In this document: positions 11,971 to 25,225 of the stretch, piece by piece | How the letters are laid out: every line of letters begins with the position of its first letter | Position numbering within the stretch: the first letter of the stretch is position 1 | DNA from: a bacterium | GTDB taxonomy: Bacteria; Campylobacterota; Campylobacteria; Campylobacterales; Sulfurimonadaceae | DNA length: 38,605 bases | Direction of reading: 5' to 3' | NCBI GenBank assembly: GCA_018824305.1 | Contig: JAHJGM010000049.1 | Coordinates: forward strand, 1 to 38,605 | Made by a program: the position numbers and the translations under genes | The notes under the pieces: model-generated | The model's database searches: none | What the model saw: only the letters and a program-made list of their open reading frames with translations | Told to the model about the DNA's origin: nothing

Positions 11971-12867
11971 ATGAAAAAAACTTATACTATTTTGACTTTA
12001 ACAGCTTTTATTATCTTAGTTGTTGCAGCCGTATTTTTCTATCAAAACAGTTCAGATAAGCAGTCTATTAAAATTTCCAGTAATCCATGGGTAGGATTCA
12101 CCCCTTTTATCTATGCGCAGGAAAAAGGGTGGCTTGATAAAACCCCTTTTAAATTTATGTGGCTGGTAGATCTTTCAGACAATGCTCGTTTATATGACAG
12201 AGGTTTTACACAAGGCTTTACCGCTACTCAATATGAACTTCTGCGTTTTAAAGAACATAGTCGTCTGAAGCCGGTATTTTTAATCGATCGTTCTTATGGT
12301 GCTGATGCGATTTTATCAAATCGTCCGTTGAGTGAACTCAGCACAGCGAATGAGCCAATAACTGTATATTTGGAATTAGGCTCTTTGGATGAAGATTTTT
12401 TCAATGCATTCATCCATGAAAATAAATTGGAAAAGCTAAAGTTTATATTAAAGAACAGTTCGCAGAAAACGATGACCACGGTGAGCCCATCAGGCTCTGC
12501 TGTCATTATGATCTCGTACGCTCCGTATGTTTCAGAGTTTCTTAAAAAAGGGTATGTGACAGTTGCCTCGACGCGCAGTATGAAATCTTTTTTCGTCATT
12601 GATGCTTTGTATGTCGATGAGCGCTTTGTGATTGGACGAGAAAAACAATATCGAGAGCTTCTGATGATCTTCAATAAAGCTTTGCAGCAATTTAAAAAAG
12701 ACCCACACGAATATTATGAAACGATTCGAGGATATTTGGAAGGGCAAAGTTATGAAGATTTTATGGATACGACTACCAAAATTCAATGGCTTAACAGTGG
12801 TATACATAAAGATGTTGAGGCTCAGTTGTATCTTCAAAATGTATCAATAGATAGGTTATTACGTTGA
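11971..12867 (+). CDS. membrane-tethered NMT1/SsuA-like solute-binding protein
   Basis: A 298-residue protein with one N-terminal hydrophobic helix (YTILTLTAFIILVVAAVFFY) and no lipobox cysteine, then a periplasmic type-II binding fold of the NMT1/THI5/SsuA kind: SSNPWVGFTPFIYAQEKGWLDK is the hallmark opening, and the order of strands (TQGFTATQYELL, FLIDRSYGADAILSN, YLELGSLDEDFF, PSGSAVIMISYAPY) follows that family. The stop overlaps the TTG start of the following GGDEF/EAL gene by four bases (TTGA). No permease or ATPase is adjacent, so I infer that it senses a small ligand for that enzyme rather than importing it, in the manner of the NspS/MbaA pair of Vibrio. The ligand cannot be read from sequence. 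ATG follows AAGGAG. Confidence 0.8.
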   Translation: MKKTYTILTLTAFIILVVAAVFFYQNSSDKQSIKISSNPWVGFTPFIYAQEKGWLDKTPFKFMWLVDLSDNARLYDRGFTQGFTATQYELLRFKEHSRLKPVFLIDRSYGADAILSNRPLSELSTANEPITVYLELGSLDEDFFNAFIHENKLEKLKFILKNSSQKTMTTVSPSGSAVIMISYAPYVSEFLKKGYVTVASTRSMKSFFVIDALYVDERFVIGREKQYRELLMIFNKALQQFKKDPHEYYETIRGYLEGQSYEDFMDTTTKIQWLNSGIHKDVEAQLYLQNVSIDRLLR

Positions 12868-15320
12868 AAATCAGTAGATTAGCACTTGTTTTGGTTAGTA
12901 TAAACGGGCTAATCCTTGCATTGCTATCAAAAGAACTTTACTCTTTACAAAGAGAGATGCAGCTGCGCATGGTGGCAAATAGCATCAATAAAAGCTTATT
13001 TCGCCTTGAAGATGATGTAAGACAGGTTCTTAGCAGTAATCATCATGAGGAACTCCAAGCTGTACTTGACCGGGCATCTGCGATCAATAATGCTATAGAT
13101 ACCGTTTCTATCTCACGTAACGGAAAAAATATAGACTTTTCTTCATCCCGTTCCTTACAAGGCAAATTGATAGGTAATGAGTATTATCCTATATCTAAAA
13201 TTCTGCATGGCTTGGTGATGGATCATGAGTTGGAGTATAAAAGTGATTTCTATTATTTTGAAGGTGCTGAAAAACGTGATGTGCAAATGTTGGTGCAGAT
13301 AAACAATGAGTATGTCTTTGGCGAACTCGATAAAGCTGCTTTTATTTATGGTGTGAGTATTTTTCTCATTTTCGCTTTGTTAAGCGCCATTATATTCGTG
13401 TTAGTGCAGAAGTTTCTGGTGAATCCATTGGAAAAACTCACACAACACGCTCACGCAAAAAACGAGGAACATAATGTTTACTTTGTCGATGAACTCACAG
13501 AGCTTGATCTCACACTTACAAACTCTTTTAAATCGATGATAGTGCAACAAGAAGCGTTAAAAGAGTCATTGGAAAAAACTCGCTATCTGGATGCGATCCT
13601 TCGAACCGTTGCAGATATAAATCAGTTACTCATCTCTGTACAAGATATTGATGAATTGATGTTTAAAAGTGTACATCACCTTGCAGGCCATCATGGATAT
13701 GGACTTTGCTGGATAGGACTGGAAGAGGCGGGTGTCATTAAACTCCAAGCAGCGTCTAGCAATGAAGAGATACCGGATATCGTTATTGAACATACAGCTG
13801 CCGATAATCCGGTTCTGCAGGCATTTTTTTCAAATAAAAGTGTCATAATTAATCATATAGAAAATCTTGAATCTATCGATTCCTGGATAAAGATCGCTCA
13901 GAAAAATCTTTTCGGATCTTTTATCACTCTTCCTCTTAGATCAAGTATTCATGAGGACTCGTTTGGTGTATTGTGTCTGTATACTTTTAACTCGGAGGGA
14001 TTTGAGTCAAAAGAGGTCGCTATGCTTGAGGAGCTGGCTGGCGATATCGGATTTGCGATTGACTCATTTCAAAAACGTCAAGAACTAGAGTATCACTTGA
14101 CGACAGACGCTATTACAGATCTTCCAAACAGAATCGTTCTAGTAGATAAACTAGCTGAAGAACGTAATGATGCAACACTTGCGATCATCAATTTGGATCG
14201 CTTTAATGACTTTAACGATGTATATGGCGTCGCTATTGGGGACAGTGTTCTGGCGGTTTATGCAAATTGGCTGTCGTCAAAGATAAAGTCGCATAAATTT
14301 ATGTCTCTCTATAAACTAAGCGGTGATGAATATGCTGTTTTATTTGATAAATGTGTAGATGTGGGTAAATGTAAACAATTTATGAATGATTTGATTTTTG
14401 CAACGTCGCATGAAGTTTTTTTAGTAAAAGAGATTGAGATGACGTTTAGTATTACCGTTGGTATAGCATCAGGTCTTGAGCGTATTATTGAACACGCGAC
14501 AGCGGCATTAAAGCGTGCAAAAATCTCTCGGCAACCTCTTGAAATACATAGTGAATCATCAAGCAGAATAGAGCATGAAAACAATATTTCTCGATATAAA
14601 AATATAAAAGAAGCGATCGATGAGTCTCGAGTTGTACCGTTTTTTCAGCCAATAGTCGATAATAACAGCGGTCAAATCGTCAAGTATGAAGCACTTGTCC
14701 GTATTATTAACAAAGATGGAACTGTTATGAGTCCAGTAGCATTTTTGGATATTTCCAAGAAGACAAGACTCTATGGACAGCTAACGAAAATAATGGTCGA
14801 TAAAACATTTGCAAAATTAAAAGAGAGCAGAGTACCGATAAGTATCAACCTTTCAACGGAAGATCTGCTTAATGTCGATCTTGCAGAATATATCGAGAAT
14901 TTGATACAGTTGCATCAGATAGGACAAAAAGTGATATTTGAGATTTTAGAGAGCGAGGGTATCGATAACTATAATGAAGTCCGTGTATTCGTCGAGCGGT
15001 TTAAAGTCTTAGGATGTCGATTTGCAATCGATGATTTCGGTGCCGGATATTCAAACTTTGATCATCTGCTCAAGTTGAATATAGATACTTTGAAAATAGA
15101 TGCTAGTTTGATTAAAAATCTTTCTCACGATGTAAACGCCAGACTTTTCGTTCAGCATATCAATGATTTTAGCCATAAGATCGGGATCGAGACAGTCGCC
15201 GAATTCGTTGCAAACGAAGCCATTTATGAAGAAGTTAAAAGGATCGGGATCGATTATTCACAAGGGTATCATTTTTACGAACCTTCTGCGGATCTTGTTA
15301 GCGATAAATTTAGTATTTAA
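12864..15320 (+). CDS. transmembrane HAMP-GAF-GGDEF-EAL c-di-GMP enzyme
   Basis: An 818-residue sensor enzyme: transmembrane helix near residues 5-24, periplasmic domain to about 155, second helix with a HAMP-like segment (FLVNPLEKLTQ), a GAF domain (about 245-395), a GGDEF domain beginning DAITDLPNR with signature SGDEY (residues 486-490) in place of GGDEF, and an EAL domain with YEALVRI (609), INLSTEDLLN, FEILESEG, DDFGAGYSNFDHL, LKIDASL and QGYHFYEP. The EAL metal and catalytic residues look intact; the GGDEF is degenerate at its first Gly and last Phe and lacks an RxxD inhibitory site. Likely a phosphodiesterase whose GGDEF is regulatory. It starts at TTG inside the stop of the solute-binding gene. 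The two form a unit that turns a periplasmic signal into c-di-GMP level. Confidence 0.88.
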   Translation: MKISRLALVLVSINGLILALLSKELYSLQREMQLRMVANSINKSLFRLEDDVRQVLSSNHHEELQAVLDRASAINNAIDTVSISRNGKNIDFSSSRSLQGKLIGNEYYPISKILHGLVMDHELEYKSDFYYFEGAEKRDVQMLVQINNEYVFGELDKAAFIYGVSIFLIFALLSAIIFVLVQKFLVNPLEKLTQHAHAKNEEHNVYFVDELTELDLTLTNSFKSMIVQQEALKESLEKTRYLDAILRTVADINQLLISVQDIDELMFKSVHHLAGHHGYGLCWIGLEEAGVIKLQAASSNEEIPDIVIEHTAADNPVLQAFFSNKSVIINHIENLESIDSWIKIAQKNLFGSFITLPLRSSIHEDSFGVLCLYTFNSEGFESKEVAMLEELAGDIGFAIDSFQKRQELEYHLTTDAITDLPNRIVLVDKLAEERNDATLAIINLDRFNDFNDVYGVAIGDSVLAVYANWLSSKIKSHKFMSLYKLSGDEYAVLFDKCVDVGKCKQFMNDLIFATSHEVFLVKEIEMTFSITVGIASGLERIIEHATAALKRAKISRQPLEIHSESSSRIEHENNISRYKNIKEAIDESRVVPFFQPIVDNNSGQIVKYEALVRIINKDGTVMSPVAFLDISKKTRLYGQLTKIMVDKTFAKLKESRVPISINLSTEDLLNVDLAEYIENLIQLHQIGQKVIFEILESEGIDNYNEVRVFVERFKVLGCRFAIDDFGAGYSNFDHLLKLNIDTLKIDASLIKNLSHDVNARLFVQHINDFSHKIGIETVAEFVANEAIYEEVKRIGIDYSQGYHFYEPSADLVSDKFSI

Positions 15321-17132: not shown

Positions 17133-18098
17133 ATGCTATTGATGAAAATAGATAAAGAACCTATGTACCGTAAATATAAAGTGGGTGATACTGTCACAGA
17201 AGATATCGTATTAAAAATATCGGATGATTACATCATTGTTATAAAATCGGGTACACAAATAGATGAGAAAATACTATATACATTATTTAATTATGAAAGT
17301 GCATATAAACTAAATTCTGAGTTACAAGAGTTTGATACTTTTCAAAGCAAAATAAAACAGATGCAATGTAAATCATTGCTGAATCGTGTTCAATTTTTCA
17401 AACATGATCCATCAAGAGTTTTTAATATGCTTTTTCAGGTCAATGAGCAACTATTTAAAGGTTTTTTAGCAAGTGAAAACAATATTATAGATATGTCTTG
17501 TGTAAAAGCTCTTGTTGAATCGATTATTTCTTTAGTCAAAGATGAACAGTATCACTTAAAAAAGATCATGCCTTTGTTAAGAGATGATTTTAATTTAGCG
17601 ACACACTCATTCAATACTACATTGTATGCATTGCAACTTGGTCATCTTTTGAACCTTGATCTTGACGAGCTTGTCAAATTGGGCTATGCCGCTTTATTAC
17701 ACGATATAGGGGAGAAGTATATAGATTCTATTGTCAATAAAAGTGGAGAATTGGATACGGACGAGTTTGAATTGTTGCGTAAGCATGTACAGTATACTTT
17801 AGATATACTTGGAGAAAACAATATTGAGGATCCTATCATTCTAGAAGCTGTGCAGCAACATCATGAACGATATGACGGAAGCGGTTATCCAAAAGGTTTA
17901 AAAGAGAGATATATCGGTCTTTTGGCTTCGATTGTAGGTATATGCGATGTGTTTGATGCTTTGACCGTCGAGCGACCTTATAGACGCGGATATAGCTCTT
18001 TTGAAGCTTTAAAATTAATGATAACGGATCCGCAGATGAAAAAGCAGTTTAACCATCATTATATTAAAAAGCTTTTGATCACGATCAGTGCAAGTTAG
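17133..18098 (+). CDS. HD-GYP domain protein, copy A
   Basis: A 321-residue soluble protein with an N-terminal beta-rich domain (residues 1-70, ...IIVIKSGTQIDEKILYTL) and a C-terminal HD-GYP domain that would hydrolyse c-di-GMP to pGpG or GMP. Visible: His158 (THSFN), HD at 190-191 in LLHDIGE, His218 in RKHVQ, HHE at 243-245 and DGSGYP at 248-253, then DVFDALTVERPYRRGY. The conserved Lys of HDxGK is Glu194. No receiver, PAS or membrane part is seen, so regulation must come through the N-terminal domain or a partner. ATG at 17133 has a strong AAAGGAGGT 5 bases upstream. It is a paralogue of the gene at 19755-20738, with the NhaP antiporter between them. Confidence 0.88.
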   Translation: MLLMKIDKEPMYRKYKVGDTVTEDIVLKISDDYIIVIKSGTQIDEKILYTLFNYESAYKLNSELQEFDTFQSKIKQMQCKSLLNRVQFFKHDPSRVFNMLFQVNEQLFKGFLASENNIIDMSCVKALVESIISLVKDEQYHLKKIMPLLRDDFNLATHSFNTTLYALQLGHLLNLDLDELVKLGYAALLHDIGEKYIDSIVNKSGELDTDEFELLRKHVQYTLDILGENNIEDPIILEAVQQHHERYDGSGYPKGLKERYIGLLASIVGICDVFDALTVERPYRRGYSSFEALKLMITDPQMKKQFNHHYIKKLLITISAS

Positions 18099-19754: not shown

Positions 19755-20738
19755 TTATGTAATTGAGAGTAAACCTTTTTTGAGATACTGATTGTTAAAT
19801 TTATTCTTCATCGATACATCCTGCATCATTATTTTTAATGCTTCAAAAGTCCCATAGCCTTTTCTATGCGGTCTGTCAGTGGTCAATGCGTCAAAAACAT
19901 CGCAAATAGCTAAGACAGAGCCAAATTCACAGATATCGTCTTTTCGTAAGTTATTTGGATAACCGCTTCCGTCATATCTTTCTTGGTGGTGTTTTATAGC
20001 ATCATGAATCATTGTGTCAGTGATATTATTGTTTTCAAGAATCAATATACAATGTTCAACACGTTTATATATTAGTTCTAACTCTTTATCGGTGAGTTCA
20101 CTGTTTTTTTCGATAATGGAACCAATGTTTTTCTTGCCAAGATCATGCAACAGTGCAGATCGTCCAAGTTGAAAAAGCTGTTGGTCATCATAATGAAGGA
20201 TGCTTCCAAGATGAAGCGCATATATCGTCACGTTCAATGAATGTATATAAAGCTTATGATCATTATAGATCTTTGGCATGATGATCTTTAAATAATTTTT
20301 ATTATTTTGAATTAAAAAAATTATAGATTCGACAACACTGTCGATACATCCCAGATCGATTTTATTATCCTGATTATTTAAAAAATCCGTAAAAATTTTA
20401 TGATTTGTCGTATAAAGCAGATCAAGAGTTTTTAAAAAATCGTTTTTATCCTTTTTTATACGCGTCAGCAATGTTTTACATTTGACATTTTTGGTATTGT
20501 CGACAAGCGCATGTATATCAGTCGGTTCAAGATTTACTATAAAGAGTTCTTTGTGTCTTTGCAGGGTGGCAAATAGTTTTTCCGTAAGTATACTGCCGGC
20601 TTCGATTATGATAATAAATTTCTCGGATCGTTTGATATAGATGTCATTAATGACGACATCACCTATTTTTAAGTTGCTTGCATCAAATAAACAGAATGAT
20701 TCTTCGGTAAAATCTTGAGTTATTTCAATAAGTTTCAT
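19755..20738 (-). CDS. HD-GYP domain protein, copy B (degenerate)
   Basis: A 327-residue paralogue of copy A (17133-18098), similar along its whole length: N-terminal beta-rich domain, then HD-GYP with His166, HD at 198-199 in LLHDLGKK, and DGSGYP at 256-261. Compared with copy A, two expected metal-site residues differ: the His of the K-H segment is Arg226 (YKRVE), and in the HHE motif the second His is Gln252 (HHQE, shifted by one against QHHE of copy A). It may therefore be a c-di-GMP-binding or weakly active protein rather than a full hydrolase; this rests on my by-eye alignment. It does keep HDxGK, which copy A lacks. The gene reads in the same direction as the NhaP gene downstream, with 75 bases between. 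Confidence 0.85.
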   Translation of the reverse strand: MKLIEITQDFTEESFCLFDASNLKIGDVVINDIYIKRSEKFIIIIEAGSILTEKLFATLQRHKELFIVNLEPTDIHALVDNTKNVKCKTLLTRIKKDKNDFLKTLDLLYTTNHKIFTDFLNNQDNKIDLGCIDSVVESIIFLIQNNKNYLKIIMPKIYNDHKLYIHSLNVTIYALHLGSILHYDDQQLFQLGRSALLHDLGKKNIGSIIEKNSELTDKELELIYKRVEHCILILENNNITDTMIHDAIKHHQERYDGSGYPNNLRKDDICEFGSVLAICDVFDALTTDRPHRKGYGTFEALKIMMQDVSMKNKFNNQYLKKGLLSIT

Positions 20739-22699: not shown

Positions 22700-25225
22700 T
22701 TAATATAAGTTGTTAACGGAGTCGTACTCAGCTTTTAATAATTTTTCAAATTGAGCTGCCGGCAAAGGGACACTTTTATAATAGCCTTGATAGATATTGC
22801 AACCCTTTTCTTTTAAAAACTCGATCTGTTCGATATACTCAGTTCCTTCTGCCAGTACCTTGTAGCCCAAGGCTTTAGCCATCTCTATAATAGCTACGAT
22901 AATCGCTTGGCTGTCATCCTGATATAAAATATCATCCACAAAGCTTTTATCTATTTTAAGAACATCGATAGGAAACAGTTTCAGATATGAAAGTGAAGAA
23001 TAACCGGTACCAAAATCATCTATCGCCAGCTGAATCCCTTTGTCCTTGAGAATATTTAACATCTCTATGATCTCTGCTTCTCTGTTGATAATCGCACTTT
23101 CCGTTAACTCAAGCTCAAGATTTTCATATTTGAATCCGCTGTTTTGTATAGCATCGTCAACTAATTTCGGAATATTCTGATATTTTAATTGATGGGAAGA
23201 TACATTCACGGCTAAAGTTAGGTCATACCCTAAATCAAGCCATCTTTTACCGTCTTTACATGTTTGATTTAAGACCCATTCACCGATAGCCGCAATAAGT
23301 CCTGTTTCTTCTGCAATAGGAATGAAGAGAGTAGGTAAAATGAGACCTTCTGTCGGGCATATCCATCTGAGGAGTGCTTCGGCACCGATGATCTTATCTG
23401 TCTGCATATCAACTTGAGGCTGATAATAAACTTCCAGTTCACAGTTATGTAGAGCTTTATGCAGTCTGTTTTCATAGTCTAAATATTTGAGTGCATCTTG
23501 AGTCATATTGTCATTATAATATCTATATTTGCCACGACCCTCATTTTTTGCTTTATACAATGCGCTATCGGCATATTGTATGATAGTTTCTACAGAATCG
23601 GCATCTTTTGGTGAGACGGCGATACCTGCACTTGTGCCTATATGTATCTCCAAACCATTTAAAATATATGGTTTAGAGATGATCTCAATCATTTTTTTTG
23701 CTGTGTGCGCGGCATCTTCTATATTAGTCATATTATCCAAAAGAAGTGCGAATTCATCTCCTCCCATTCTTGCAATAAGATCTTCCGTACTTAATGTTGT
23801 TGAGAGTCTGTTTGCAACAGCAACTAGGAGTTCATCACCGACTGTATGTCCATAGCTGTCGTTTATATTTTTGAATTTGTCCAGATCAAATATGATCAAA
23901 GCTATATACGAGTCATTGCTTTTAGCATTTGTAATAGCTTTTTTTAGATGGTATTTTAGTAAAGAGCGGTTTGGTATTTCCGTTAAAAAATCATAATTAG
24001 CCAGCTTTTTAAGCTCTTTTTCTTTTTCTCTTTGTTCAGTTATATCGTGTGCAATATATAATGTTCCGATAATGATATTGTCATTGGACAACATAGGAGT
24101 CTGGCGGATTTTGTATAATCCGCTGTGAGAACCATCTGCAAAAACAAGATATTCTTCACTTTCCATTGTTTTTTTATCATAGTCGTGAAGATATACAGGC
24201 AGTTTTTTATCGACGAAATCATAGTCGGCTTTACCGATAATATTTTCTTTTTCGATACCGAAGTAGTTTTCAAACAACCTGTTACATGTAAGATACTTTC
24301 CATCCAGATCTTTTATCCAGATGAGGTCAGGGATGGTATTGATGATATTGTTAAGAAAAGCAGTCTGTGTATTGAGTGCAGTTTGACTCTTTTGCAATTC
24401 TATAAGTGTGAGGTTCTTCATCTCGATCGTATTGATAAGATGCTTGAAATATGAGCCATAGAGTGCTTCAAGCAGATCATGACGAGAAATAATACCAATG
24501 AGCTCATCTTTGTCATCGACTATGATGAGTTGATGTACGCCCGCACTCTCCATAAGGACAATAGCTTCTCTAATAGAAGAGGATTTATTTAAAAAATGAA
24601 ATCTTTGCGTTTGAAGTGTGCTGATCGATCTGGATGAGAGTTCATTCAGAGAGACTTCTGTGAGACAACGGCTTATATCTCTTTGGGTGATAAGAGCCTT
24701 TGGTTTGTTGTCTTCCGTGATGATCGCGAAATTAAAATTCCGCTCTTCCATGATTTTGGCGACATCTTTGATAAGTGCCGTTGCCTCTACCGTCAAGGGG
24801 ACACTTATGCTGATGTCCGAAACACTTTTAAAGAGATTTATTTGTTTAAAAGTCGCATTTCTCAAAAAATCGCCTTGAGTCACAACACCTAGATACGATC
24901 CCTGTTTATCCACGACAACTAGATGGTTGAAACCCTCTTTATCCATCTCTATGTAAGCATCATTGATATTTATATCATCTCTGATTGTAAAAATCTTCTT
25001 TGTCATAACATCGGATATTTTATTTGAAGTATTTATAAAATTTGAAGCTATTTTCAAACTGTCATGTTCTGTGAAGATACCGATAGGTTTGTTGTCATTG
25101 TCGACAATAACAACAGAACTGATCTGGTTCTCTGTCATTAAAGTGAGTGCATCATAAATAGAATCATCACTTTTTAACGGGAAGGCTTTTTTTGACACGA
25201 TAGAACTTAGTTGAACATTCTGCAT
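22700..25225 (-). CDS. four CBS domains-PAS-GGDEF-EAL c-di-GMP enzyme
   Basis: An 841-residue cytoplasmic protein. Residues 1-125 and 130-260 are two Bateman modules (four CBS repeats with G-I-F-T-E-H-D, G-V-V-T-Q-G-D and G-I-I-S-R-H-D ends), a PAS domain follows at about 287-400, then GGDEF (IARMGGDEF, signature 488-492) and EAL (AEALLRW, 616-618; NVSSHQLK, ELTESAI, DDFGTGYSSL, LKIDKSFV, AEGTE, QGYYKSVP). All catalytic signatures look intact; no RxxD inhibitory site precedes GGDEF (STED there). CBS modules normally bind adenine nucleotides or S-adenosylmethionine, so activity may be set by energy charge, and PAS may add a redox or ligand signal. Both synthesis and hydrolysis of c-di-GMP are possible. 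Confidence 0.92.
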   Translation of the reverse strand: MQNVQLSSIVSKKAFPLKSDDSIYDALTLMTENQISSVVIVDNDNKPIGIFTEHDSLKIASNFINTSNKISDVMTKKIFTIRDDININDAYIEMDKEGFNHLVVVDKQGSYLGVVTQGDFLRNATFKQINLFKSVSDISISVPLTVEATALIKDVAKIMEERNFNFAIITEDNKPKALITQRDISRCLTEVSLNELSSRSISTLQTQRFHFLNKSSSIREAIVLMESAGVHQLIIVDDKDELIGIISRHDLLEALYGSYFKHLINTIEMKNLTLIELQKSQTALNTQTAFLNNIINTIPDLIWIKDLDGKYLTCNRLFENYFGIEKENIIGKADYDFVDKKLPVYLHDYDKKTMESEEYLVFADGSHSGLYKIRQTPMLSNDNIIIGTLYIAHDITEQREKEKELKKLANYDFLTEIPNRSLLKYHLKKAITNAKSNDSYIALIIFDLDKFKNINDSYGHTVGDELLVAVANRLSTTLSTEDLIARMGGDEFALLLDNMTNIEDAAHTAKKMIEIISKPYILNGLEIHIGTSAGIAVSPKDADSVETIIQYADSALYKAKNEGRGKYRYYNDNMTQDALKYLDYENRLHKALHNCELEVYYQPQVDMQTDKIIGAEALLRWICPTEGLILPTLFIPIAEETGLIAAIGEWVLNQTCKDGKRWLDLGYDLTLAVNVSSHQLKYQNIPKLVDDAIQNSGFKYENLELELTESAIINREAEIIEMLNILKDKGIQLAIDDFGTGYSSLSYLKLFPIDVLKIDKSFVDDILYQDDSQAIIVAIIEMAKALGYKVLAEGTEYIEQIEFLKEKGCNIYQGYYKSVPLPAAQFEKLLKAEYDSVNNLY
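24282..24291. repeat. TTACATGTAA palindrome, copy 3
   Basis: Exact copy inside the CBS-PAS-GGDEF-EAL gene (PAS region, reverse-strand frame CTT ACA TGT AAC). Confidence 0.9.

Follow-up and report, generated by a model that had tools for sequence, protein, structure and literature searches.

The window, meaning the whole 38,605-nucleotide stretch of Sulfurimonadaceae DNA analysed here, is contig C60 of a 2.4 Mb genome that is 99.7% complete. It carries adjoining genes for a membrane-anchored solute-binding protein (SBP) and for a membrane GAF-GGDEF-EAL protein, hereafter the partner (Table 1). The overlap of the SBP stop codon with the TTG start of the partner, and the GAF, GGDEF and EAL domains, had been read from the sequence in a preliminary description, and were recovered at the ORF level and by Pfam, respectively. 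Further c-di-GMP genes, encoding two HD-GYP-type proteins and one CBS-PAS-GGDEF-EAL protein, are clustered within 10 kb of the pair.

Table 1 Features of the SBP/partner locus, with positions in the window
Feature	Position	Strand	Basis
SBP gene	11971..12867	+	ORF, ATG start, 298 aa; NMT1/SsuA-type, membrane-anchored (AlphaFold, SsuA fold match)
SBP N-terminal helix, residues 2-27	11974..12051	+	Predicted uncleaved signal anchor; DSSP of model, sequence without lipobox Cys
Four-base overlap TTGA	12864..12867	+	SBP stop TGA 12865-12867, partner start TTG 12864-12866 (sequence)
Partner gene	12864..15320	+	ORF, TTG start, 818 aa; membrane GAF-GGDEF-EAL protein (Pfam, model)
TM helix 1, residues ~6-26	12879..12941	+	Sequence; DSSP helix 3-57
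Periplasmic domain, Cache-like, residues ~28-150	12945..13313	+	Model secondary structure; kept in relatives; relative L090 matches sCache_4
TM helix 2, residues ~159-181	13338..13406	+	Sequence; DSSP helix 148-198
GAF domain, residues 261-400	13644..14063	+	GAF_2 E=3e-12
GGDEF domain, residues 414-553	14103..14522	+	Pfam E=4e-17
Degenerate GGDEF motif SGDEY, residues 486-490	14319..14333	+	Sequence
EAL domain, residues 580-807	14601..15284	+	Pfam E=1e-58
Local c-di-GMP genes (two HD-GYP-type, CBS-PAS-GGDEF-EAL)	17133-18098; 19755-20738; 22700-25225	+; -; -	Pfam

The AlphaFold model of the SBP, built with 77 sequences (pLDDT 93.6), matched E. coli SsuA (2x26) with a Z score of 23.1 and 3.0 Å over 261 residues, and TauA with a Z score of 21.3, giving the two-domain SsuA/TauA fold. 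At the sequence level, the window SBP has no Pfam match above cut-off, neither to NMT1 (PF09084) nor to NMT1_2 (PF13379; 12.2 bits, E=0.16, cut-off 24.7), and neither the SBP nor its profile drew a credible match in sequence searches against PDB chains; among the 77 family members, 34 match NMT1 and 27 match NMT1_2. The initial assignment to the NMT1/SsuA type is therefore upheld by fold and family matches. So is the transmembrane anchor in place of a lipobox, which appears in the model as a single N-terminal helix; a lipobox is present in many relatives, whereas the window SBP has none.

The partner model (pLDDT 89.2) shows a periplasmic domain with the order helix-helix-strand-helix-strand-strand. 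This domain looks Cache-like in the model; the window partner has no match to Pfam sCache_4, and the sole relative to provide that link is a GGDEF-only protein (L090, E=3e-5). The HAMP domain given in the preliminary description was not found, as none of 66 aligned partners matched Pfam HAMP at E<=0.01. A GAF domain is present in 22 of the 66, all on the window's branch of the family (see below). All EAL residues examined in the window partner are intact (E609, N662, E693, E696, D723, D724, K744, E780 and Q800), and the metal and substrate residues checked are likewise intact in 65/65 partners that reach that far. The degenerate GGDEF motif, which the preliminary description does not mention, together with the intact EAL domain predicts that the window pair acts mainly as a phosphodiesterase. 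SGDEF-type motifs can retain cyclase activity.

A contig scan with the single SBP returned nothing, and a scan with an SBP alignment returned 103 relatives, 80 loci of which were read. These loci were gathered by SBP motifs alone, with the partner playing no role in their selection. The next gene begins at -11 to +52 bp from the SBP gene in 79 loci, and the -4 overlap recurs in 42 of these. A TM-periplasmic-TM domain lies directly downstream of the SBP in 76 of 79 judgeable loci, 29 of the 76 having helped to build the model of that domain. The three exceptions are a next gene for another type of sensor, whose AHQWRQP motif makes it kinase-like (L127), a next gene for another membrane protein (L133), and a downstream domain that could not be assigned either way (L063). 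Adjacency of SBP and partner is thus not due to chance, given the closeness of the next gene in 79 loci and the same periplasmic domain in 76. The hosts are Campylobacterota (Sulfuricurvum, Sulfurimonas, Arcobacter, Sulfurovum and others), in which the preliminary description had suggested looking for the pair, and also gammaproteobacteria (Thiomicrorhabdus, Hydrogenovibrio and Cognaticolwellia); contigs binned as Methylotenera, Gallionellaceae and Halothiobacillus may be misbinned. A literature search, with subscription papers outside its reach, found no description of this pair.

In a sample of the phylum, 48 of 397 genomes contain a match to the SBP model; the weakest matches are guanidine importer SBPs, and the partner domain adjoins most of the strong ones. 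The partner domain is split by an insertion in G358, a kinase-like partner accompanies the SBP in G365 and G270:C15, and the SBP stands alone in G407. An unlinked arrangement, which had been named as speaking against the coupling, does occur and is rare: one locus has the SBP without a linked partner (L222), a few periplasmic domains resembling that of the partner are found where this SBP is missing, and L063 is ambiguous. A plasmid search gave a single distant ABC SBP. In an Arcobacter-like pair (L214:1969-5377), an insertion carrying a transposase-like ORF breaks the partner gene. GGEEF proteins whose periplasmic domain is related lie downstream of ammonium-transporter-like genes with this SBP absent (L201-L203), and unrelated SBPs occur in tandem with kinases or GGDEF proteins (L206-L208, L209, L211 and L213).

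The SBP tree splits into 21 and 43 rows with 99% support, and the 64 pairs divide by partner type in the same way. Partners on the window's branch are ~820 aa long and have a GAF domain and a GGDEF motif that is degenerate (for example SGDEY or GSDEY), with the exception of one intact GGDEF (L071) and one protein without GAF (L074); partners on the other branch are ~660 aa long with the GGDEF motif intact. The SBPs of the other branch are lipoproteins (L116 and L125 judged by eye), and on the window's branch the lipobox is retained in the basal members L072, L073, L074, L076 and L077, the others having a hydrophobic anchor. The window's genome holds one pair from each branch, the second, absent from the preliminary description, with a lipoprotein-type SBP and with GGDEF and EAL both intact. 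We infer from these sequences that the phosphodiesterase-type paralogue arose from an ancestral bifunctional, lipoprotein-coupled receptor, rather than in the reverse direction. The distances between SBPs track those between the GGDEF and EAL domains, with correlations of 0.81-0.92 within the two clades; together with the shared two-branch split of the 64 pairs, this indicates that SBP and partner are inherited together.

Dozens of sulfur-oxidising bacteria carry this pair with no transporter next to it, so that a role as a chemical sensor is very probable; the sensor would be of a familiar general type but based on a different class of SBP. The reading we favour, and consider likely, is a ligand-sensing c-di-GMP receptor in which a signalling-dedicated SBP docks on the Cache-like periplasmic domain and so sets c-di-GMP hydrolysis. 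The SBP, held at the membrane, would capture a small molecule in the periplasm and close; in one of its two states it would dock on the periplasmic domain of the partner, shifting the helices through the membrane, and the signal would pass via GAF and the degenerate GGDEF to set the rate of hydrolysis by EAL. The linkage of SBP and partner shows co-function, not contact. The SBP most likely acts through the periplasmic domain, as that domain is constant across differing outputs: GGDEF-EAL in 65 of the 66 aligned partners (the remaining one ends at a contig edge), GGDEF alone in L090 and PAS-GGDEF in L106. Conserved pairing and the SsuA/TauA fold agree with the earlier proposal of an SBP from a different family coupled to a c-di-GMP enzyme by NspS/MbaA-like logic, with contact between the two the presumed route.

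NMT1/TauA-type SBPs usually feed importers, and the SBP fold is that of transporter SBPs, so the SBP might instead serve an ABC importer encoded elsewhere, with the enzyme responding to transport as in transporter-linked sensors. However, no TauC-type permease was found in 870 ORFs of the 80 loci, by a search that recovered its positive controls. The window's genome has seven BPD permeases, two of them TauC-type, each adjoining its own SBP gene; of the two, one is part of a guanidine operon and the other of a second cluster, which includes a separate SBP gene. As the SBP also stays beside sensor genes across two phyla, the importer explanation is highly improbable, and the absence of transporter partners noted from the window holds in both the relatives and the genome.

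A loss of ligand binding that would leave the SBP as a structural or regulatory receptor subunit is very unlikely; the SBP is anchored rather than free and the window SBP is missed by Pfam profiles, but all 77 proteins keep W40, T86, D112, Y183 and D211, residues that fall in or close to the TauA ligand site when aligned, as expected for a retained binding site. The partner might also be a catalytically dead, LapD-like c-di-GMP binding receptor within the same sensor, in keeping with its degenerate GGDEF motif and with the Foldseek matches listed for the full-length partner, all of them GGDEF or EAL structures and LapD one of them. This is very unlikely, as no partner that extends to the EAL residues checked has lost any of them.

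The 16 invariant SBP columns in the 77 proteins contain no Lys, Arg or His, and include acidic and aromatic residues among others. In TauA, Glu106 and Asp205 bind the taurine amine and Gln30 binds the sulfonate (PMC6906117); in an alignment at ~10% identity these correspond to D112, D211 and W40 of the SBP. Of the ligands named in the preliminary description, a sulfonate or nitrate now appears unlikely, because there is no invariant basic residue, Gln is replaced by Trp, and Asp112 and Asp211 fall at amine-binding positions; a thiamine precursor is conceivable, but none of the results here favours it. Among NCBIfam models, TIGR03427 is the one matched most often (32/77 members), SsuA_fam being matched by 2/77, and the window SBP itself scores 12.1 bits against the TIGR03427 cut-off of 333.9. 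The TIGR03427 protein encoded in the window's genome has a guanidine-I riboswitch upstream, as do the six related SBPs examined. The guanidine ABC-transporter SBP (TIGR03427) represents the nearest transporter relatives found, and shares the D-x-S-x-G-x-D motif and the Asp at TauA Asp205; unlike the window SBP, it has permease, ATPase and carboxylase genes alongside. In the window's genome, one region (L048:310-8000, G000:C13) contains two guanidine-I riboswitches, a TIGR03427 importer and a carboxylase-type operon; guanidine importers have been reviewed (PMC12186494). With guanidine-riboswitch-controlled SBPs as nearest transporter relatives, and with the alignment to the TauA amine site, a small amine or guanidine-like cation would be our best guess. 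Co-occurrence with the guanidine importer gave no support, both being present only in G000 and G006 of nine genomes with importer-like matches in the phylum sample. It is doubtful that the signal which the family relays to c-di-GMP is extracellular guanidine or something closely similar to it; if true, guanidine, so far mainly known as a signal via riboswitches, would have a signalling system at the membrane as well.

NspS is a PotD-type polyamine SBP. The window SBP is instead NMT1/SsuA-type and anchored, as judged by family profiles and best fold matches. In NspS-MbaA of Vibrio cholerae, found also in Sinorhizobium meliloti, MbaA acts as a cyclase or as a phosphodiesterase depending on whether NspS is occupied (PMC8967002). 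As there, the SBP gene adjoins a gene for a membrane GGDEF-EAL receptor, which the periplasmic SBP is proposed here to control; unlike the bifunctional NspS-MbaA, the window partner combines a degenerate GGDEF with an intact EAL and an added GAF. By analogy, the working principle is that of NspS-MbaA, with differences in SBP family, in anchoring and in the output (GAF plus degenerate GGDEF). SsuA and TauA share the two-domain fold of the SBP, but differ in sequence (~10% identity), in the sulfonate-binding Gln and in serving an importer. SBP/histidine kinase pairs (for example AgtS, PMC11113362) likewise have an SBP gene beside a membrane sensor gene, and related SBPs lie beside kinases in L050, L052, L220 and L221; unlike these, the window pair has c-di-GMP turnover as its predicted output. 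According to a 2022 review, of the 27 Pfam families in the periplasmic binding protein clan only SBP_bac_3 had been studied in c-di-GMP networks (PMC8846402). The present pair adds a conserved and widespread example in which the SBP is NMT1-type and forms a separate chain. Its hosts are free-living sulfur oxidisers with many c-di-GMP enzymes, mostly without assigned inputs.

The second pair of the window's genome, with GGDEF and EAL both intact as in NspS-MbaA, lies at L035:2773-7933 (G000:C13) behind motA, motB and fliP in one gene run, an order repeated in L037 and L039, and this position suggests motility as the output of the second pair in the window's genus.
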